A program made the translations under genes and the position numbers. This document shows, piece by piece, positions 17,287-48,677 of a stretch of DNA of 64,000 nucleotides. Position 1 is the stretch's first letter, and each line of letters opens with the position of its first letter. This DNA is from Tessaracoccus aquimaris (GTDB lineage Bacteria; Actinomycetota; Actinomycetes; Propionibacteriales; Propionibacteriaceae): the NCBI RefSeq assembly GCF_001997345.1, contig NZ_CP019606.1:620001-684000 (forward strand), read 5' to 3'. The notes under the pieces were generated by a model that saw only the letters and a list, made by a program, of their open reading frames with translations, was not told the origin of the DNA and made no database searches.

Positions 17287-18396
17287 ATGTCAGGGCCTAA
17301 CGACAACTTCGATCCCAAGCAGGTCGCCGCGCTCGATCCGGCGCAGATCGACGGCTTCGTGACGGAGGCGCTCTCCGCGATCGAGGCCTCCTCGACGACC
17401 GCGGAACTGAAGCAGGCGCGCCACGACCATGCGGGAGAGGTCTCCCCGCTCGCGCTCGCCAACCGCGAGATCGGCGCGCTGCCCCCGCATGCGCGCAAGG
17501 AGGCCGGCCAGCGCGTCGGACAGGCGCGCGGCAGGCTGAACCAGGCGTTCGCCGCCCGCCAGGAGGCCCTCTCGGTCGCCGAGGAGGAGGCCACCCTGGT
17601 CGCGGAGCGCGTCGACATGACCCTGCCGGTCGACCTCGGCCCCCGCGGAGCACTGCACCCCGTCACCAACCTGATCGACGAGATGATCGACGTGTTCGTC
17701 GCGATGGGCTGGGAGGTCGCAGACGGCCCGCAGGTGGAGTCGGAGTGGCACAACTTCGACGCCCTCAACCTCGCCCCCGACCACCCCGCCCGCGCCCTGC
17801 AGGACACCCTGTGGATCGACCCGCCGTCGGCGGGCAAACTGCTGCGCACCCAGACGTCGCCGGTGCAGATCCGCGCGATGCTTGAGCGCGGCGTCCCGCT
17901 GTACATCATCAGCCCCGGCAAGGTTTTCCGCGCCGACGAGTACGACGCGACCCACCTTCCCGTCTTCCACCAACTCGAGGGCCTCGTCGTCGACAAGGGC
18001 ATCTCGATGGCCGACCTGCGCGGCACGCTCGACCACCTCGCGCAGGCCATGTTCGGCGACGTCCGCACCCGGATGCGCCCGCACTACTTCCCGTTCACGG
18101 AGCCGTCGGCCGAGGTCGACCTGCAGTGCTTCGTGTGCCACGGCGAGTCCGTCGGCAATCCCGAGCGTCCCTGCCGCACCTGCCGCTCCGAGGGCTGGAT
18201 CGAGTGGGGCGGCTGCGGCGTCGTCAACCCGCGTGTGCTCGCCGCCTGCGGCGTCGACCCCGAGGTGTACTCGGGCTTCGCGTTCGGCATGGGCGTCGAC
18301 CGCACCGTGATGTTCCGCACCGGAGCGCCCGACCTTCGCGACTTCGTCGAGGGCGACATCCGCTTCAGCCGTTCGATCCTTGGAGGTGCCCGATGA
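17287..18396 (+). CDS. pheS: Phenylalanyl-tRNA synthetase alpha subunit
   Basis: 369 residues, the catalytic subunit of the alpha2-beta2 enzyme charging tRNA-Phe. N-terminal coiled coil (about residues 15-90), then class II motifs: GDV/VFRADEYDATHLPVFHQLEG (motif 2) and FAFGMGVDRTVMF (motif 3). The ATG at 17287 follows GAGGGTCCC. Its stop overlaps the pheT start (ATGA). Confidence 0.97.
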   Translation: MSGPNDNFDPKQVAALDPAQIDGFVTEALSAIEASSTTAELKQARHDHAGEVSPLALANREIGALPPHARKEAGQRVGQARGRLNQAFAARQEALSVAEEEATLVAERVDMTLPVDLGPRGALHPVTNLIDEMIDVFVAMGWEVADGPQVESEWHNFDALNLAPDHPARALQDTLWIDPPSAGKLLRTQTSPVQIRAMLERGVPLYIISPGKVFRADEYDATHLPVFHQLEGLVVDKGISMADLRGTLDHLAQAMFGDVRTRMRPHYFPFTEPSAEVDLQCFVCHGESVGNPERPCRTCRSEGWIEWGGCGVVNPRVLAACGVDPEVYSGFAFGMGVDRTVMFRTGAPDLRDFVEGDIRFSRSILGGAR

Positions 18397-20885
18397 AGGC
18401 CCCGATCTCGTGGCTGCGTGACCTCGTCACGCTGCCCGCAGACACCGACACCGCGCGGCTCGCCGACCAGTTCACCAAGGTCGGCCTGACCGTCGAGCAC
18501 ATCGAGCAGACCGGCTCGCCCGTCACCGGGCCCCTCGTGGTCGGCCGGGTGCTCAGCCTCGTCGAGGAGCCGCAGAAGAACGGCAAGACGATCCGCTACT
18601 GCCGCGTCGATGTCGGAGCGGAACTCAACGACGACGCGACGGACGAGTTCCCCGCGAGCCGCGGCATCGTCTGCGGCGCCGACAACTTCGCCGTCGGCGA
18701 CCTCGTCGTCGTGGCGCTGCCCGGCTCGGTGCTGCCCGGCGACTTCTCCATCGCGGCCCGCAAGACCTACGGCCACGTCTCCGACGGCATGATCTGCGCC
18801 GAGGACGAACTGGGCCTCGGCGAGGACCATAGCGGCATCATGGTGCTCGCCTCGGACACGGCGGATCCCGGCACCGACGCGATCGACCTGCTGTGGAGCG
18901 CCGACGAGGTGCTCGACATCGACGTGACCCCCGACCTGAGCTACTGCCTGTCGCTGCGAGGGCTGGCCCGCGAGGCGGCCATCGCGAACGGCGTGAGCTA
19001 CGAGGACCGCTACCGGGCGCACCTGCCCGAGCCGGTCGACGGCGGCCACCCGGTCGTCCTCGACTCCGACCGCTGCTCCGCCTTCGTCGCGCTGACGATC
19101 CAGGGCATCGACCCGACCGCCGCGTCACCGTCGTGGATGGTCGACCGGCTGCGCGCCTCCGGCGTCCGCTCGATCTCGCTGCCCGTCGACGTCACCAACT
19201 ACGTGATGCTCGAGTCCGGTCAGCCGCTGCACGCCTACGACGCCGCCAAGCTGTCCGGCCCGATCGTCGTCCGGCTCGCCCGGGATGGCGAGAAGTTGCG
19301 CACGCTCGACGGCCAGGACCGCGACCTCGACGCCGACGACCTGCTCATCACCGACGACTCCGGCCCCATCGGGCTGGCGGGCGTGATGGGCGGCGAGACG
19401 ACCGAGGTCTCCGACGCGACCACCGCCATCGTGCTGGAGGCGGCCAGCTTCGCGCCCGCATCCGTGTCGCGCACCTTCCGCCGCCACGGCCTGCCTTCTG
19501 AGGCGTCCAAGCGCTTCGAGCGCGGCGTCGACCCGCAGCTCGGCTACGCGGCAGCTAAGCGCGCCGCGAAGCTGCTGATCGCCAGCGGCGGGGGAGAGGT
19601 GACCGCCGAGACGGTCGTCGGCTCCGCGCCCGCGACCAGGCACATCTCGCTGCGCTCCGGCCTCGTGTCGGCCGTGCTCGGCACCAAGGTCGAACAGGAC
19701 GAGATCACCCGGCTGCTGCGCGCCGCCGCGATCCCGGTGACCGTGCTCGGTGACTCGCTGACGGTGGACGCGCCGAGCTGGCGCGGCGACCTTGTCGACC
19801 CGTACGACGTCGTCGAGGAGATCGGCCGCCACATCGGCTACGACCGGATCGGTCTGCGGCTGCCGGTCCCGCCGGTGACCCGTGGACTCGACCCGCTGAT
19901 CCGCAACCGGAGGGCCGCGCTGCGCGCCGTCGCAGCGCTCGGCTTCACCGAGGTGCTGTCGCTGCCGTTCGCCGCCACCGATGAGCTCGACCAGTTGGGC
20001 GTCCCGGAGACCGACCCGCGCCGCTCGCTCGTGAGGCTCGCCAACCCGCTGTCGGAGACCCACGCGTACCTGCGCACCTCGCTGCTGCCCGGGCTGTTCG
20101 CCGCGGTCGCCAGGAACACGAGCCGCAGCATGGGCGACCTCGCGCTGTTCGAGCAGGGACGGGTCTACTTCGACCGTGGCGACGCCGTCGCGCCCCGCCC
20201 GAGCGTCGCGCACCGTCCGAGCGAGGACGACCTTGCCGCGATCGAGGCTGCGCTGCCCGGCCAGCCGGAGACCATCGCCGCCGTCGTGACGGGCAACTGG
20301 CGTCCCGCGGGCTGGTGGGGTCCTGCCGTGCCAGCCGACTGGACGCACGTCGTCGCGTTCGCTGAGCGCGCCGCTGCCGCGGTGGGGGCTCGCCTGGACC
20401 GTCGCAACGCCTCGGTCGCGCCGTGGCATCCCGGCCGCGGCGCCGAGCTGTCCCTCGGCGGGGTCGTGCTCGGCCACGCCGGCGAACTGCACCCGGCCGT
20501 CGTCAAGGCGTTCCGGCTCCCCGAGCACGCGTGCGCCGTCGAGCTGAACCTGGAACTGGTCCTGAAGCTCGCCACGGACGGTGGCCGGATCGGCACCCTC
20601 TCGGCGTTCCCGCTCGCGAAGGAGGACGTCGCGCTGATCGTCGACGCCGACGTCGCCGCCTCGGACGTGCAGGCGGCGCTCACCGAGGGCGCGGGCGACC
20701 TGCTGGAGTCGATCTCGCTGTTCGACGTCTACACGGGCGACCAAGCGGGCGAGGGCAAGAAATCGCTTGCGTTTGCGCTGCGTTTCCGTGGCGACACGAC
20801 GCTCACCGACGCCGACGCGGCCGCTGCCCGCCAGAACGCGGTAGCTGTCGCTGTCGAGCGCTTCGGGGCGGTCCAGCGCGCCTGA
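18393..20885 (+). CDS. pheT: Phenylalanyl-tRNA synthetase beta subunit
   Basis: 830 residues, full length. Order: N-terminal MKAPISWLRDLVTLP, EMAP/OB-fold tRNA-binding segment (VVGRVLSLVEEPQKNGKTIRYCRVDVG, about residues 47-80), B3/4 editing domain, B5 domain (about residues 400-480), catalytic-like core, and the C-terminal anticodon-binding domain (SAFPLAKEDVALIVDADV to FRGDTTLTDADAAAARQNAV). Translationally coupled to pheS and followed by a strong terminator at 20903. Confidence 0.97.
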   Translation: MKAPISWLRDLVTLPADTDTARLADQFTKVGLTVEHIEQTGSPVTGPLVVGRVLSLVEEPQKNGKTIRYCRVDVGAELNDDATDEFPASRGIVCGADNFAVGDLVVVALPGSVLPGDFSIAARKTYGHVSDGMICAEDELGLGEDHSGIMVLASDTADPGTDAIDLLWSADEVLDIDVTPDLSYCLSLRGLAREAAIANGVSYEDRYRAHLPEPVDGGHPVVLDSDRCSAFVALTIQGIDPTAASPSWMVDRLRASGVRSISLPVDVTNYVMLESGQPLHAYDAAKLSGPIVVRLARDGEKLRTLDGQDRDLDADDLLITDDSGPIGLAGVMGGETTEVSDATTAIVLEAASFAPASVSRTFRRHGLPSEASKRFERGVDPQLGYAAAKRAAKLLIASGGGEVTAETVVGSAPATRHISLRSGLVSAVLGTKVEQDEITRLLRAAAIPVTVLGDSLTVDAPSWRGDLVDPYDVVEEIGRHIGYDRIGLRLPVPPVTRGLDPLIRNRRAALRAVAALGFTEVLSLPFAATDELDQLGVPETDPRRSLVRLANPLSETHAYLRTSLLPGLFAAVARNTSRSMGDLALFEQGRVYFDRGDAVAPRPSVAHRPSEDDLAAIEAALPGQPETIAAVVTGNWRPAGWWGPAVPADWTHVVAFAERAAAAVGARLDRRNASVAPWHPGRGAELSLGGVVLGHAGELHPAVVKAFRLPEHACAVELNLELVLKLATDGGRIGTLSAFPLAKEDVALIVDADVAASDVQAALTEGAGDLLESISLFDVYTGDQAGEGKKSLAFALRFRGDTTLTDADAAAARQNAVAVAVERFGAVQRA

Positions 20886-20902: not shown

Positions 20903-20934
20903 ACGGACGCCCGACCAGCAGGTCGGGCGTCCGT
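20903..20934 (+). terminator. Strong intrinsic terminator after pheT
   Basis: Perfect 14-bp stem ACGGACGCCCGACC / GGTCGGGCGTCCGT with loop AGCA, 18 bases after pheT. The tail (TGCGTTT) is only moderately T-rich. Its right arm and tail form the start of the left boundary repeat at 20925-20958. Confidence 0.85.
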
Positions 20935-20958
20935 TGCGTTTCGGCGGATCGTTCGTCA
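20925..20958 (+). repeat. Left boundary direct repeat of the GIY-YIG island
   Basis: 34 bases that recur as a 35-base copy at 22392-22426 in the same orientation, differing by two substitutions and one inserted T. The core shared part starts TTGCGTTTCGG and ends GGATCGTTCGTCA. The left copy begins inside the pheT terminator. Confidence 0.8.
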
Positions 20959-21524
20959 AGCTTGTCGAGACGTCCGAGACCTCGCGCGGTCCGGGTCTGG
21001 GGACCCATCGACGGGCTCGTGGGTCGTTCGTCGAGCTTGTCGAGACGTCCGAGACCACAGGTGGTCCGTGTGACGAGGTCTTGAGGCGTCCGGGGCGGCT
21101 CAGTGACGGGTTTGGAGGGGGCCGGCTGGTGTTCGTTGGTGGTTGCTGGGTTGTGGGTTCGGACCCCTCGACGGGCTCGGAAGCCGTTCGTCGAGCTTGT
21201 CGAGACGTCCGAGTGGTGGTGCGGCGTGGTGGTGTCGGACCCCTCGACGGGCTCGCGGGCCGTTCGTCGAGCTTGTCGAGACGTCCGAGACCACAGGTGG
21301 TCCGTGTGACGAGGTCTTGAGGCGTCGGGGACGGCTCAGTGACGGGTTTGGAGGGGGTCGGCTGGTGTTCGTTGGTGGTTGCTGGGTTGTGGGTTCGGAC
21401 CCCTCGACGGGCTCGGAAGCCGTTCGTCGAGCTTGTCGAGACGTCCGAGTGGTGGTGCGGCGTGGTGGTGTCGGACCCTTCGACGGGCTCGGGGATCGTT
21501 CGTCGAGCTTGTCGAGACGTCCGA
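20951..21524 (+). repeat. Six forward copies of a palindrome-related intergenic repeat
   Basis: The core GTTCGTCGAGCTTGTCGAGA followed by CGTCCGA occurs at 20951 (one base different), 21026, 21186, 21262, 21422 and 21498. Five of the six are preceded by CGACGGGCTCG, which pairs with CGAGCTTGTCG using two G-U pairs. In copies 3-5 the pairing extends to the 13-bp stem CTCGACGGGCTCG / CGAGCTTGTCGAG around a 12-base loop. Similar sequences are abundant between genes of many actinobacteria (from memory, not checked). No credible protein is encoded here. Confidence 0.85.
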
Positions 21525-21536
21525 AACCACACGCGA
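21065..21536 (+). repeat. Tandem duplication of a 236-bp unit
   Basis: Bases 21065-21300 and 21301-21536 are two head-to-tail copies, both starting TCCGTGTGACGAGGTCTTGA, with only a few differences until the last 15 or so bases, where copy two diverges. Each unit holds two of the palindromic repeat cores. High similarity implies a recent duplication or ongoing gene-conversion. Confidence 0.85.
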
Positions 21537-21611
21537 TCCGGTGTGCGACGGCCTTGTCCCCAGCGAAATGGATCCGTGAGAAGTCGGCTGGCCGATGGCG
21601 AAGCATTGGGC

Positions 21612-21893
21612 ATGGCATGGATCTACATCTTGAGGTGTGCCGACGGCTTCTACTACGTCGGCAGCGCCAGGAATCTTGAGGCCCGAATGGACGCCCACAT
21701 GGCGGGTAAGGGAGCGAAGTTCACCCGCAGACGGCTGCCGGTGGAGCTCGTCTACGCCCAGGAGTGCGACAACATCGGTGAGGCTTGGTCGCTTGAACGT
21801 AAGGTGCACGGCTGGAGTCACGCCAAGAAGGAGGCCCTCGTCAACGGGGATTTCCACCTGCTACCTGGTCTGGCGCGGGGGAGGCGACGGTAG
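21612..21893 (+). CDS. Small GIY-YIG domain nuclease (UPF0213-like)
   Basis: 93 residues, essentially one GIY-YIG domain: WIYILRCADGFYYVGSARN (the GIY...YIG pair appears as IYI...YVG, residues 3-17), the catalytic Arg in NLEARMDAH, and the metal-ligand Glu in WSLERKVHGWSHAKKEAL. Single-domain members of this family (YhbQ/UPF0213 type) are common but poorly understood. ATG at 21612; a weak purine tract precedes it. It is enclosed by repeats: forward cores end 88 bases upstream and the inverted tandem array starts 22 bases downstream, an arrangement that suggests a link between nuclease and repeats. Confidence 0.88.
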   Translation: MAWIYILRCADGFYYVGSARNLEARMDAHMAGKGAKFTRRRLPVELVYAQECDNIGEAWSLERKVHGWSHAKKEALVNGDFHLLPGLARGRRR

Positions 21894-21914
21894 CGGGGCG
21901 TTGGGCAAGCGGCG

Positions 21915-22390
21915 GTGGCGCTGTGGTTGCGGACGTCTCGACAAGCTCGACGAACGGGGGGCGCGCCCCAGCGAACGGCAACCGAGGGATGGGAGGCCTC
22001 AGTGGCGCTGTGGTTGCGGACGTCTCGACAAGCTCGACGAACGGGGGGCGCGCCCCAGCGAACGGCAACCGAGGGATGGGAGGCCTCCGTGGCGCTGTGG
22101 TTGCGGACGTCTCGACAAGCTCGATGAACGGTGGTCGCGCCCCAGCGAACGGTAGCCGAGCGGTGGTAAGCCTCAGTGGCGCTGTGGTTGCGGACGTCTC
22201 GACAAGCTCGATGAACGGTGGTCGCGCGCCAGCGAAACGGCAACCGAGCGGTGGTAAGCCTCAGTGGCGCTGTGGTTGCGGACGTCTCGACAAGCTCGAC
22301 GAACGGTGGTCGCGCCCAGCGAATGCGGCCGAGCGGTGGGAAGCCTCAGTGGCGCTGTGGTTGCGGACGTCTCGACAAGCTCGACGAACG
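21915..22390 (-). repeat. Tandem array of six ~87-bp units with inverted repeat cores
   Basis: Units start with GTGGCGCTGTGGTTGCGGAC at 21915, 22002, 22089, 22176, 22264 and 22349 (periods 87, 87, 87, 88, 85). Each contains TCTCGACAAGCTCGACGAAC, the reverse complement of the core left of the GIY-YIG gene, two of them with one T for C change. The second half of the unit (GCGCCCCAGCGAACGG..., then GAGCGGTGG) is more variable. The last unit is cut off after the core. No ORF here shows protein-like features. Confidence 0.88.
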
Positions 22391-22391
22391 G

Positions 22392-22426
22392 GGGCGTCTG
22401 TTTGCGTTTCGGGGGATCGTTCGTCA
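22392..22426 (+). repeat. Right boundary direct repeat of the GIY-YIG island
   Basis: 35-base partner of the copy at 20925-20958. Its last three bases are the stop codon of the minus-strand rhomboid-like gene, so the repeat abuts a coding end. Confidence 0.8.
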
Positions 22427-23245
22427 GCGGCGACGCTGGCGCAGCTTCTCCAACTCCGCCCGCTCCTGCTTCGTCAACGAGTGGATGCCGCTTGCGTTGA
22501 TCTTGTCGAGCAACTGGTCGATGCGCTCCTCGTCTGAGGCGCGGCGGTCGGCGTGGCGCTGCTGCGTCCGGGTCGACTGGTGCGTGCGGGGGCGGTGCTG
22601 GGTCCGGCTCGTGGTCTTCTTGCGCCTACCACCGGGGATCCAGGAGTACTGGCCGAGGAGGCCGACGCTGCGGGCCGCCATCGCGACCAGCACGAGCGAG
22701 AGCAGCAGGCCGAGCAGGTTGCCCCAGGCGCGGAAGGCCAGCATCGGCAGCACCTGCAGGGCCAGCATGACCAGCCCGAAGACCCACGCTGGGATGTTGA
22801 AGAAGAAGCGACGGGTCGGCCACTCGGCGATCCACAACAGCAGCAGGCAGAACTCCACCATCTGCAATCCGGCGATGACCGAGCCTGGCACGACGATCCC
22901 GACCAGCGTGGTCGTCAGCGTGAGCGAGCCCCAGATCCCCAGGAACAGCAGCGCCATCTGGCTGCGGCCGATCTGCGCCTCGAGGTCGCGGCCGAACAGC
23001 CACAGCAGCGCGAGGTTCAGGACGCTCCACAGGCTGATGGTGTCGGCGAGAGGCCACGTGAACAGCCGCCACACCTCGCCGCCGAGCATCTGCTGCGGCG
23101 CGTAGACCAGCCACTGCGGCAGCGAGGGGACGAACACCCAGGCGAGCATGCCGACGGCGCCGAGGAGGGCCACGGCGATCGTCGTGGTGACATCGAGGCG
23201 CCCGATCTTGAACCAGGGCTCGCTCTGCTGCTGATAGGAACTCAC
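22424..23245 (-). CDS. Rhomboid-like membrane protein, catalytic residues apparently absent
   Basis: 273 residues, GTG start (VSSYQQQSEPWFKIG). About six hydrophobic helices; LGGEVWRLFTWPLADTI matches the L1-loop WR motif of rhomboid proteases. Where active members have GxSG before helix 4, this one has VPGSVIAGLQM, and the helix-6 His position reads AWGNLLGLLL. It therefore looks like a pseudo-protease. The C-terminal charged tail ends in DEERIDQLLDKINASGIHSL plus TKQERAELEKLR, a motif frequent after bacterial rhomboid domains. Lies 94 bases downstream of the DUF2867-like gene. Confidence 0.75.
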   Translation of the reverse strand: MSSYQQQSEPWFKIGRLDVTTTIAVALLGAVGMLAWVFVPSLPQWLVYAPQQMLGGEVWRLFTWPLADTISLWSVLNLALLWLFGRDLEAQIGRSQMALLFLGIWGSLTLTTTLVGIVVPGSVIAGLQMVEFCLLLLWIAEWPTRRFFFNIPAWVFGLVMLALQVLPMLAFRAWGNLLGLLLSLVLVAMAARSVGLLGQYSWIPGGRRKKTTSRTQHRPRTHQSTRTQQRHADRRASDEERIDQLLDKINASGIHSLTKQERAELEKLRQRRR

Positions 23246-23339
23246 ACCCCAAGCGTGCCAGACGAGCGAAGCCCCCGCCGCCGAGCGTTCCGCCAACCGG
23301 CCCGAGGCGCGCCATTGCCTGCATCGTCGGCGCCGCCGC

Positions 23340-23948
23340 TCAGCCCTGCGCGGTCCCGTCGGCGTCTCCTTCGTCACCCACATCGGCGCGATCCTCCCAA
23401 GCCCGTGCCCACTCCCGCAGCATCGCGGGCCACACGATGAACCGTCGAAACGGCCGGATGAACGCCATGTAGATGCGACCGAGCCGGCCGTTGGGCTTGG
23501 TGTAGACCGCCAACTCGAGGCCGTAGCCGTCGCCGGTCGGCACCCAACCGCAGTGCATGACCCCGTGGACGGTCGCGTTGGCCGTCTCCGCCGCCATCTC
23601 GGTCGGCAGCACGTACACCGGCCGCAACAGGCCGGACGAGGGGTCCGGCGCCGCCCGCAGTTCCGGCGACACCCGCTCCCTCAGGGACGCGACCCGGCCG
23701 TCGAGCCCGGATCCTGACCTGTCCCAGCCGAACCACTTGCCGAGCTTCCAGCGTGCCGCGAAGAGGAACCGGACGACCGCGGTGCTGTGTTCCCCGCGGC
23801 GCTTCAGGAGGGCCAGGAATCGTGCCATGTCGGTAGGGCTGGAGCCGGGTGCGGGCACCAGCCAGACGTCCTCCAGCGTGAAGTCGTCGGCAATGCCGTG
23901 CACGAGCCACGGCCTCTGAAGATGCTCTGACGCAGGACGTTGGTACAT
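23340..23948 (-). CDS. DUF2867 family protein
   Basis: 202 residues. Motifs of the family: a short lead ending HGIADDFTLEDVWLVPAPG, then a large middle domain with RWKLGKWFGWD and MHCGWV, and an Arg/Trp-rich end (KPNGRLGRIYMAFIRPFRRFIVWP). Function unknown; related domains sit behind NAD(P)-binding sugar epimerase-like proteins. It is divergent from the TetR gene at 24013 with 64 bases between, so it is the probable target of that repressor. Confidence 0.75.
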   Translation of the reverse strand: MYQRPASEHLQRPWLVHGIADDFTLEDVWLVPAPGSSPTDMARFLALLKRRGEHSTAVVRFLFAARWKLGKWFGWDRSGSGLDGRVASLRERVSPELRAAPDPSSGLLRPVYVLPTEMAAETANATVHGVMHCGWVPTGDGYGLELAVYTKPNGRLGRIYMAFIRPFRRFIVWPAMLREWARAWEDRADVGDEGDADGTAQG

Positions 23949-46308: not shown

Positions 46309-46400
46309 GCATTTCCAGGACCTTTTGAGTCGGCTTGACCGACCGCCCGTCCCAGCTAGTGAGTTAGGTGATCCGCTGCCGGTTTGGGATGATAGGGAGC

Positions 46401-48677
46401 ATGTCTGAGCAGAACGATTCCTCCCAGGGCCGGCCCTCGTCGAGCGGCGGCCGCGGCGACGACCGGCCGCCCTACAACCGGGATCGACGCGACGACGACC
46501 GTCGCGGCCCACGCCGCGATGACGACCGTAAGCCGTTCAACCGGGATCGTCGTGATGACGATCGTCGCGGCCCACGCCGTGATGACGATCGGAAGCCGTT
46601 CAACCGTGACGACCGCGGCCCGCGCCGGGACGATGACCGTAAGCCGTTCAACCGGGACCGTCGAGACGATGACCGTCGCGGTCCTCGTCGCGATGACGAC
46701 CGTAGGCCGTTCAACCGTGACGACCGTGGACCGCGCCGGGATGACGACAGGAAGCCGTTCAATCGCGACGACCGTGGCCCCCGTCGGGACGATGACAGGA
46801 AGCCGTTCAACCGCGACGACCGTGGCCCCCGCCGCGACGATGACCGTAAGCCGTTCAACAGGGACCGTCGAGACGACGATCGCCGCGGCCCACGCAGCGA
46901 CGACAGCCGCAGGCCCTACAACCGTGACGACCGCGGCCCCCGCCGCGACGACGACCGTAAGCCGTTCAACAGGGACCGTCGAGACGATGACCGTCGCGGT
47001 CCTCGTCGCGATGACGACCGCAGGCCCTACAACCGTGACGACCGCGGCCCCCGCCGCGACGACGACAGGAAGCCGTTCAACAGGGACCGTCGAGACGACG
47101 ATCGCCGCGGCCCACGCAGCGACGACAACCGCAGGCCCTACAACCGTGACGACCGCGGCCCCCGCCGCGACGACGACCGCAGGCCGTTCAACCGTGACGA
47201 CCGCGGCCCCCGCCGCGACGATGACCGTAAGCCGTTCAATCGCGACCGTCGAGACGATGACCGTCGCGGTCCTCGTCGCGATGACGACCGCAAGCCGTAT
47301 GGCCGCGATGACCGTGGACCGCGCCGGGACGATGACCGCAGGCCGTTCAACCGTGACGACCGCGGCCCGCGCCGTGATGACGACCGTAGGCCGTTCAACC
47401 GTGACGACCGCGGCCCGCGCCGGGACGATGACCGCAGGCCGTTCAACCGTGACGACCGCGGCCCGCGCCGTGACGATGACCGTAGGCCGTTCAACCGTGA
47501 CGACGACCGACGCGGCTGGCGTGGCGAGGGCGAGGAGCGGGAACGTCGCTTCCACCCGGGCACCGAGGCACGCGCCGACGAGCCTGACACCCCGCAGGAC
47601 TATGTGGAGAACGAACTGCCGTTCGGTGTGCGTGCCGAGCTGAAGAGCCTCCCCAAGGACCTGGCGGACATCGTCGGCGCCCACATCTGGGCGGCCGGCC
47701 ACCTGATCGACGAGGACCCGGATCTCGCGTTCCGCCACGCGGAGGCCGCGCGCCGCCGCGCGGGTCGCCTGCCCATCGTGCGGGAGGCGGCCGCAGAGAC
47801 CGCGTACGCGGCGGGGGAGTACGCCATCGCGCTGCGCGAGTTCCGCGCCATCCGCCGGATGAACGGCGGCGACGACCTGCTGCCGGTGATCGCCGACTGC
47901 GAGCGCGCGCTCGGGCGGCATCGTGACGCGCTTGCCGTGCTTGCGGAACTCGATCCCGCGACCCGCAACATCGAGCTGCGGATCGAGTGCCTCCTTGTTG
48001 AGGCAGGGATCCGCGACGACCTTGGCCAGCGTGCCGAGGCTCTGCGTCTGCTGAAGGCGGCCATCGGACGCAAGATCGGGGCGCCCGGCGCGCAGGCGCG
48101 ACTGCGCTACGCGTACGCCGACCTGCTCGAGCGGCAGGGCGACGCGCAGGGCGCACGTGAGTGGTTCACCTCCGCGGCCGCCCTCGACCAGCATGCCGAC
48201 CTTGACGTCGCCGACCGGCTCGCGTCTATCGACGGCGTCGTGCTTCCCGACTTCGCCGACGACGAGGACGAGGACGACGACCTCGACGAGGACGACTCTG
48301 ACGAGGACCTTGACGAGGACGACTCCGATGAGGACCTTGACGAGGACGACTCCGATGAGGACCTTGACGAGGACGACTCCGATGAGGACCTTGACGAGGA
48401 CGACTCCGATGAGGACCTTGACGAGGACGATTCCGATGAGGACCTTGACGAGGACGATTCCGATGAGGACCTTGACGAGGACGATTCCGATGAGGACCTC
48501 GACGAGGACGATTCCGATGAGGACCTCGACGAGGACGATTCCGATGAGGACCTCGACCAGGACGACCCCGACGAAGAGGACCTGGAAGGGGAGGACGAGG
48601 CGACCCCGGCGGCCGAGGACGAGGCTGCCGACGATAGCCTGGAGCCGACCGACGACGAGGGGGACGAGCGGGAATGA
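46401..48677 (+). CDS. TPR-like protein with long charged repeat tails
   Basis: 758 residues. Residues about 25-370 consist of about 19 copies of a 15-residue unit RGPRRDDDRKPFNRD, some with an inserted RRDDD block: alternating Arg and Asp, certainly disordered. Residues about 390-615 form a helical, TPR-like domain (ELPFGVRAELKSLPKDLAD, AGEYAIALREFRAIRRMNGG, ALAVLAELDPATRNIELR). The tail is strongly acidic, with ten 9-residue DSDEDLDED-type repeats. Mycobacteria also have a TPR-type gene before the HAD phosphatase, so the central domain is conserved while the tails vary. Its function is unknown; the Arg/Asp repeats resemble RNA-binding or condensate-forming tails. ATG 46401; coupled to the next gene (ATGA). 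Confidence 0.8.
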   Translation: MSEQNDSSQGRPSSSGGRGDDRPPYNRDRRDDDRRGPRRDDDRKPFNRDRRDDDRRGPRRDDDRKPFNRDDRGPRRDDDRKPFNRDRRDDDRRGPRRDDDRRPFNRDDRGPRRDDDRKPFNRDDRGPRRDDDRKPFNRDDRGPRRDDDRKPFNRDRRDDDRRGPRSDDSRRPYNRDDRGPRRDDDRKPFNRDRRDDDRRGPRRDDDRRPYNRDDRGPRRDDDRKPFNRDRRDDDRRGPRSDDNRRPYNRDDRGPRRDDDRRPFNRDDRGPRRDDDRKPFNRDRRDDDRRGPRRDDDRKPYGRDDRGPRRDDDRRPFNRDDRGPRRDDDRRPFNRDDRGPRRDDDRRPFNRDDRGPRRDDDRRPFNRDDDRRGWRGEGEERERRFHPGTEARADEPDTPQDYVENELPFGVRAELKSLPKDLADIVGAHIWAAGHLIDEDPDLAFRHAEAARRRAGRLPIVREAAAETAYAAGEYAIALREFRAIRRMNGGDDLLPVIADCERALGRHRDALAVLAELDPATRNIELRIECLLVEAGIRDDLGQRAEALRLLKAAIGRKIGAPGAQARLRYAYADLLERQGDAQGAREWFTSAAALDQHADLDVADRLASIDGVVLPDFADDEDEDDDLDEDDSDEDLDEDDSDEDLDEDDSDEDLDEDDSDEDLDEDDSDEDLDEDDSDEDLDEDDSDEDLDEDDSDEDLDEDDSDEDLDEDDSDEDLDQDDPDEEDLEGEDEATPAAEDEAADDSLEPTDDEGDERE
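46480..47515 (+). repeat. 45/60-bp coding repeats (Arg/Asp units)
   Basis: About 19 repeats coding RGPRRDDDR(K/R)PFNRD. Many are identical over 30 or more bases, so the array is prone to copy-number change and assembly error. Confidence 0.85.
48268..48560 (+). repeat. 27-bp coding tandem repeats (acidic)
   Basis: Ten copies of a 27-base unit coding D-E-D-D-S-D-E-D-L. Copies 2-5 are nearly identical and 6-10 share a TTCC variant, showing block-wise expansion. Confidence 0.85.

Follow-up and report, generated by a model that had tools for sequence, protein, structure and literature searches.

Why does the gene for a very small nuclease lie between two opposed arrays of one short repeat, and does the nuclease recognise and spread that repeat? 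The question is raised by a block at positions 20925–22426 of the window, a 64-kb stretch of Tessaracoccus aquimaris (GCF_001997345.1, NZ_CP019606.1) whose source genome, G000, is one contig of 3.93 Mb. By Pfam assignment the block sits between two converging genes: pheT, for the phenylalanyl-tRNA synthetase beta chain (18126–20885, forward strand), in which the start of the listed open reading frame is probably too early, and a gene for a rhomboid-family protein with a DUF6576 tail (22424–23383, reverse strand). Within the block, as the sequence-only reading of this DNA had it, gene A (21612–21893, forward strand) encodes a 93-residue GIY-YIG protein (PF01541, E 3.1e-16). Its conserved motifs are intact. 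Alignment A1 of GIY-YIG proteins shows Y5, Y15 and H29 to be invariant and G17, R25 and E62 nearly so. Which conserved positions are catalytic is assigned from general knowledge of the GIY-YIG fold, and those of gene A would be compatible with an active nuclease.

Upstream of gene A are six forward copies of a hairpin repeat, here called type A (20951–21517, forward strand), preceded by inverted, degenerate relatives (GGACCCCTCGACGGGCTCGG); downstream are six inverted copies in 87-bp tandem units (21936–22389, reverse strand). The upstream copies form a 236-bp tandem unit whose two copies are 97% alike, and the downstream tandem array runs from 21915 to 22391 with 93% matches. The earlier count of six forward and six inverted copies was confirmed: allowing up to three mismatches, the 20-mer GTTCGTCGAGCTTGTCGAGA has 12 matches in the window (nine exact, three with one mismatch), every one within 20951–22389, six on the forward strand upstream of gene A and six on the reverse strand downstream, and none in 100 dinucleotide shuffles. 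The block is bracketed by direct repeats read by eye, a left copy of 34 bp (20925–20958, forward strand) that runs on from a terminator-like inverted repeat behind pheT and a right copy of 35 bp (22392–22426, forward strand) whose last bases belong to the rhomboid stop codon; computation finds a 25-bp ungapped part at 96%. Elsewhere in the window (46368–48677), an open reading frame of 769 residues has two repeats, a long N-terminal one of the RRDDDRKPFNRD type and an acidic C-terminal one (DLDEDDSDE) in units of 27 bp. We consider it rather probable that the block makes up a REPtron-like unit: a small site-specific GIY-YIG nuclease together with inward-facing arrays of its cognate hairpin repeat, which it would recognise.

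The repeat is dispersed far beyond the block. With as many as two mismatches allowed, G000 contains 147 copies of type A, 84 of them forward and 63 reverse, and the reversed pattern, used as a control, does not occur there. The element, CGTTCGTCGAGCYTGTCGAGACGTCCGA, is a sharply bounded 28-bp core (109 copies from 20 regions), with nearly all positions at 1.8–2 bits, four at 1.0–1.2 and the surroundings mostly at 0.1–0.5. We read its fold as stem CGTC, GAG, loop CYTGT, CGA and stem GACG, where GA opposite AG would form two G.A mismatches. In the energy model a single element folds no better than shuffled DNA (z 0.35), and an inverted pair folds well (z -2.28). A search for known RNA families returned a single match, far under the gathering score. 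Type A occupies at least 25 clusters in G000; among those listed, inward-facing arrays are found at the gene A locus alone. G000 has 409 sites of the central string GAGCYTGTCGA, some 130 of them type A. At the L047 cluster (2200–2850), other GAGCYTGTCGA sites, of the CCCTGAGC..GTCGAAGGG kind, oppose type A as inverted pairs; a further region with this string was noted at G000:C1:192193–317556. The PF01541 search of G000 found no third small GIY-YIG gene for the CCCTGAGC..GTCGAAGGG repeats.

That search found five places in G000: gene A, one further small gene (gene B, locus L001) and three in long frames of 387–673 residues. Gene B is flanked by a different repeat, type B (GGTTGAGCCATGTCGGGCGCGGAGCGG..TCGAAACC), whose string GGTTGAGCCATGTCG has 40 copies in G000 at up to one mismatch, five of them at gene B, and 0–2 copies in each of the 38 other genomes of the genus. 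The type A string GTCGAGCYTGTCGAGAC has 130 copies in G000, one in G095 and none in the 37 other genus genomes. Both repeat families are nearly private to G000 among the 39 genus genomes. The pairs are also kept apart within the genome: the 14 kb surrounding gene B lack type A (up to three mismatches allowed), and the window, which holds gene A, lacks type B (up to one mismatch). This cognate pairing already strains the notion that repeat clusters are simply hot spots of insertion or exchange in which a nuclease gene happens to land, and we regard such passive neighbourhood as improbable. The type B copies show a strong strand bias, 34 reverse and six forward, with five of the forward copies at gene B. 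Another genome, G126, also has two GIY-YIG genes, each with different repeats. PHROGs gave no match for the nuclease genes, and PADLOC gave none for gene A and weak matches for gene B (E 0.001–0.003). Some genes of this kind are seemingly split into two frames (L157/L160 in G088, and G120:C1:442025–442302); those of G088 adjoin CCCTGAG..CGAAGGG repeats, and such split genes are perhaps decaying units.

The link between nuclease and repeat, which the sequence-only reading had put forward from one locus, is supported well beyond it by flanking repeats, hairpin design, the protein tree and co-occurrence across genomes. For the flanks, the best 80 of 577 loci from a contig scan were taken, picked for likeness to the query, and the two G000 genes were added to give 82 loci. 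Added up over the loci, repeats within 1 kb of the gene cover 17853 bases and the control medians 2007.5, an 8.9-fold excess, part of which may be non-specific because the controls are mostly coding and the flanks partly intergenic. Ranked among its own control windows, the gene neighbourhood stood at or below 0.1 in 60 of 76 loci and at or below 0.05 in 39 of the 76, four loci with fewer than ten control windows having been dropped. Repeat families found de novo adjoin the gene in 80 of the 82 loci, many with only two to four copies and some possibly by chance; in L092 and L129 the same search found no family adjoining the gene. Of the genus genes, 11 from ten genomes were read with wider flanks, and all 11 have a repeat family of at least three copies, facing inward in most, L245 being the exception. 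Around the related genes at large the orientation is opposite in 33 loci, the same in 13 and undecided in 34, and the inward orientation is a tendency only. A C-terminal tail with a peptide of a sort encoded by such repeats, judged by a list of peptides of our own choosing, is present in 15 of 212 homologues among the matches listed.

These loci also bear on whether another enzyme, a RAYT (HUH tyrosine transposase) or some other transposase elsewhere in the genome, moves the repeats. RAYTs are proposed as movers of REPs in other bacteria (PMC3116915, PMC8266576). The gene beside the repeats is, locus after locus, a GIY-YIG gene, in loci that were themselves found by that gene, and we judge a mover of this other kind most improbable here.

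The repeats beside these genes have a common design. Every trinucleotide pair that encloses a loop of 3–24 and lies within a 4-bp stem was counted in the 82 loci. GAG..CGA ranked first: 70 of the 82 have it twice or more, and it is enriched 5.0-fold versus far flanks. The runner-up by number of loci reached 43 of 82 at 1.2-fold, and ACC..GGT, at 2.9-fold in 29 loci, was the sole other pair above 2-fold among the 25 listed. Across the 80 named loci, two or more GAG..CGA hairpins are present in 43 of 51 from Actinomycetota, 17 of 19 from Pseudomonadota, 3 of 4 from Bacteroidota, 1 of 2 from Chloroflexota, the one each from Cyanobacteriota and Fibrobacterota, and both unplaced loci; the remaining 12 have fewer than two. 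L148, L224 and L226 showed none in the locus test, and other repeats are present there. Of 7188 deduplicated GAG..CGA pairs close to the gene, 191 show full complementarity of the four flanking stem bases, versus 55 ± 7 (maximum 76) when partners were shuffled 500 times, and the complementary hairpins comprise 54 different stems. The hairpins of these 70 loci, mostly from Actinomycetota and Pseudomonadota, follow one design, stem-GAG-loop-CGA-stem′, in which stems vary and complementarity is kept; GA facing AG would, as we read it, again make a tandem G.A mismatch. Two or more such hairpins accompany 20 of 26 strong-hit loci and none of six weak-hit GIY loci; the other GIY domains, almost all of which lie in long frames, have them in three of 25 cases. 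This control left out the gene fragments L157, L159 and L160, which also adjoin hairpins, and a few of its loci near contig ends have misplaced gene limits. The weak-hit loci, which lack these hairpins, count further against passive neighbours.

The type of repeat follows the protein tree. A dominant hairpin of at least two copies was found in 84 of 111 loci, the other 27 being dropped, and the loop class mapped on the tree requires 12 changes versus a mean of 22.9 and a minimum of 17 in 300 shuffles. Stem and loop taken together, with states seen once dropped, require 36 changes over 74 rows versus a mean of 51.6 and a minimum of 45. The proportion of protein pairs that have a stem in common rises from 5% at 40–50% identity to 78% (9 pairs) at 80–90%. 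Common ancestry of close loci adds to this signal. A repeat that tracks the tree of its nuclease is not what a gene landing by chance in repeat clusters would give.

Across genomes, a strong gene hit (E < 1e-20) is found in 15 of the 117 genomes of the host's family, and in 20 at 1e-8. GAGCYTGTCGA reaches at least 100 copies in 19 of the 117, 11 of which have the gene, and TGGTTGAGNAG, a pattern picked after the repeats of G050 and G080 had been read, does so only in these two, where the gene adjoins that repeat. With both patterns the counts for gene with expansion, gene alone, expansion alone and neither are 13/2/8/94 (Fisher p 3e-10), and with GAGCYTGTCGA alone 11/4/8/94 (p 9e-8), p values that treat related genomes as independent although they are not. 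The cut-offs were chosen after the counts were known; the counts show a gap between 60 and 104. Gene and repeat expansion thus co-occur, imperfectly. Equal abundance of the repeat in genomes without the gene had been named beforehand as an outcome that would count against the link; part of that outcome is seen, since eight of the 102 family genomes without a strong hit hold at least 100 GAGCYTGTCGA copies. On rechecking these eight, G040 has a small gene (A1, E 8.9e-13) and G073 a 129-residue frame at a contig edge; otherwise GIY-YIG domains occur solely in open frames of at least 292 residues. For six of the eight the sample includes gene-bearing members of the same genus, which makes it plausible that the gene was lost while the repeats survived. 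With eight of the 19 expanded genomes lacking a strong hit, repeats evidently persist, or arise, without the gene.

Such genomes suit another explanation, that of a resident recognition system, in which the nuclease cuts single-stranded DNA at the repeats and so shapes uptake or recombination, as is reported for Ssn of Neisseria, the repeats being spread by other means or kept by selection and the nuclease not being their transposase. Cognate pairing and the signal on the tree require recognition only, and so fit this account too. The genome-private expansion of each repeat beside its own gene looks instead like a mobile replicator, and the gene is patchy, being present in 17 of 39 genus genomes. 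We hold the resident system to be unlikely, though it deserves serious weight.

The site without the block tells further against residence. The rhomboid gene (E ≤ 1e-20) is present in 20 of the 39 genus genomes, G000 among them. For six relatives the fetched stretch reaches the end of pheT, and the gap between pheT and the rhomboid gene does not contain the block; in the other 13 neither pheT nor the nuclease gene was seen within the fetched stretch. Five of the six have a gap of about 55–75 bp with a terminator-like inverted repeat, as read by eye. In G118, a close relative (L199, 960–1490), the gap is filled by about 540 bp of a different repeat, of the TCGAGTATCGGCCAGTGGTCGA type, with no nuclease gene, which is what passive neighbours would predict; the gap is possibly a hot spot of insertion. 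G121 and G125 have the nuclease at other places in the genome.

In G000 the left flank by itself, continued to the rhomboid stop codon, would amount to a full site, and the 35 bp on the right repeat it. We read the block as an insertion with target duplication; unequal exchange is possible. The longest exact match between the flanks is 13 bp, where 600 controls gave a median of 7, a 95% point of 11 and a maximum of 70. Of 20 further clusters in G000, 18 had a longest flank match of 6–11 bp, and two had matches of 18 and 23 bp, in repeat-like sequence. Target-site duplication as a general mark of insertion was rejected, none having been found outside the repeat units at those 20 clusters, and ordinary clusters of this kind are in keeping with a resident system. 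At the L047 cluster, compared with G118, G123, G095 and G125, G000 carries kilobases of other sequence, and the comparison yielded no readable junction. At the left junction of the block GTTCGTCA passes into AGCTTGTCGAGACG, and this one site suggests that a cut lies near GAG. The sequence-only reading holds in part: the nuclease–repeat link and the sites without the block support it, and self-propagation would be a further step, which the flanking duplication, weak at 13 bp against 11 and absent at the 20 clusters, does not establish.

Returning to the REPtron-like reading, we infer that the nuclease spreads its repeat. Judging from the GIY-YIG fold, it might nick its own hairpin in single-stranded DNA, on the lagging strand or during recombination or uptake. 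Speculatively, the repeat could then be copied to, or joined at, other places as the nicked hairpin undergoes repair or strand transfer, and each new nuclease specificity would found a new private repeat population.

The analogy drawn earlier with RAYT/REP systems working through a different nuclease fits. As in REPtrons and REPINs, a single nuclease gene has short palindromic repeats on both sides, and these are scattered through the genome, often as inverted pairs; the enzyme between the arrays is here a GIY-YIG protein rather than a HUH tyrosine transposase, and the GTAG head of REPs is absent from the element. CGTC-tagged REPs (PMC3733652) are short palindromic repeats in several phyla, mostly alpha-Proteobacteria, with 8–9 bp stems and A/T at the first positions, and reportedly have no dedicated transposase. 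Their tag is described as lying outside the stem, whereas CGTC here is the 4-bp stem itself (CGTC/GACG), with G.A mismatches in a 28-bp core. GIY-YIG homing endonucleases have the catalytic domain in common with gene A, which is only 93 residues long and lies between convergent genes instead of in an intron, intein or interrupted gene, and relatives without the block keep both neighbour genes. The NCBIfam model for group I intron endonucleases was rejected at 25.2 bits, far below its cut-off of 56.05. The structures matched by sequence, PDB 1zg2 (E 1e-21) and 1ywl (E 4e-17), are UPF0213 proteins whose entries call them hypothetical. To our knowledge no repeat association has been described for UPF0213.

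Closest to the present case is Ssn. A 2025 study in Nature Communications is said to have described Ssn of N. meningitidis as a GIY-YIG nuclease that cuts single-stranded DNA at a repeat, reportedly with many homologues of other specificities and matching sequences. The sequence-only reading knew of no published description; if Ssn is as reported, the pairing of a GIY-YIG nuclease and its own repeat is in general terms already in print, and the present idea is not wholly new. The likeness, in features reported for Ssn, lies in a small GIY-YIG protein with a short repeat in many genomic copies. Gene A is a small stand-alone domain with the Y, YxG, R, H and E columns conserved, and the many-copy cognate repeats of its genome number 147 for type A and 40 for type B. 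Differing from Ssn here are the short GAG/CGA hairpins with possible tandem G.A pairs, the variable stems, the inward arrays around the gene, the presence of two pairs that are independent of each other within a genome, and relatives that do not have the block; cleavage by the present protein is a prediction. No Neisseria-named protein appears among the homologue matches listed (two listings of 120 each). In open-licence PMC papers the repeat strings are absent and GIY-YIG does not occur together with "repetitive extragenic palindromic"; the link between a GIY-YIG nuclease and repeats is undescribed in the titles and abstract beginnings among the matches listed. Beyond Ssn as reported, the present additions would be a hairpin code that spans phyla, two orthogonal pairs within a single genome, arrays flanking the gene and the absence of the block from relatives.

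More tentatively, and with less confidence than for the block itself, we suggest that GIY-YIG REPtrons may be widespread replicators, in which a nuclease of about 100 residues would found and multiply its own GAG/CGA (tandem G.A) hairpins in several phyla, with stem specificities evolving along with the protein and paralogues running independent repeat populations. In the present case a very small nuclease is linked, one pair at a time, to its repeat through a readable code of variable stem and fixed GAG/CGA. Two specificities in one genome serve as mutual controls, and the question of who spreads the repeats becomes directly testable. The loci also offer many natural candidates for sequence-specific single-strand nucleases. 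If the suggestion of widespread GIY-YIG REPtrons is true, they could supply the enzyme that many orphan palindromic repeats have so far lacked.
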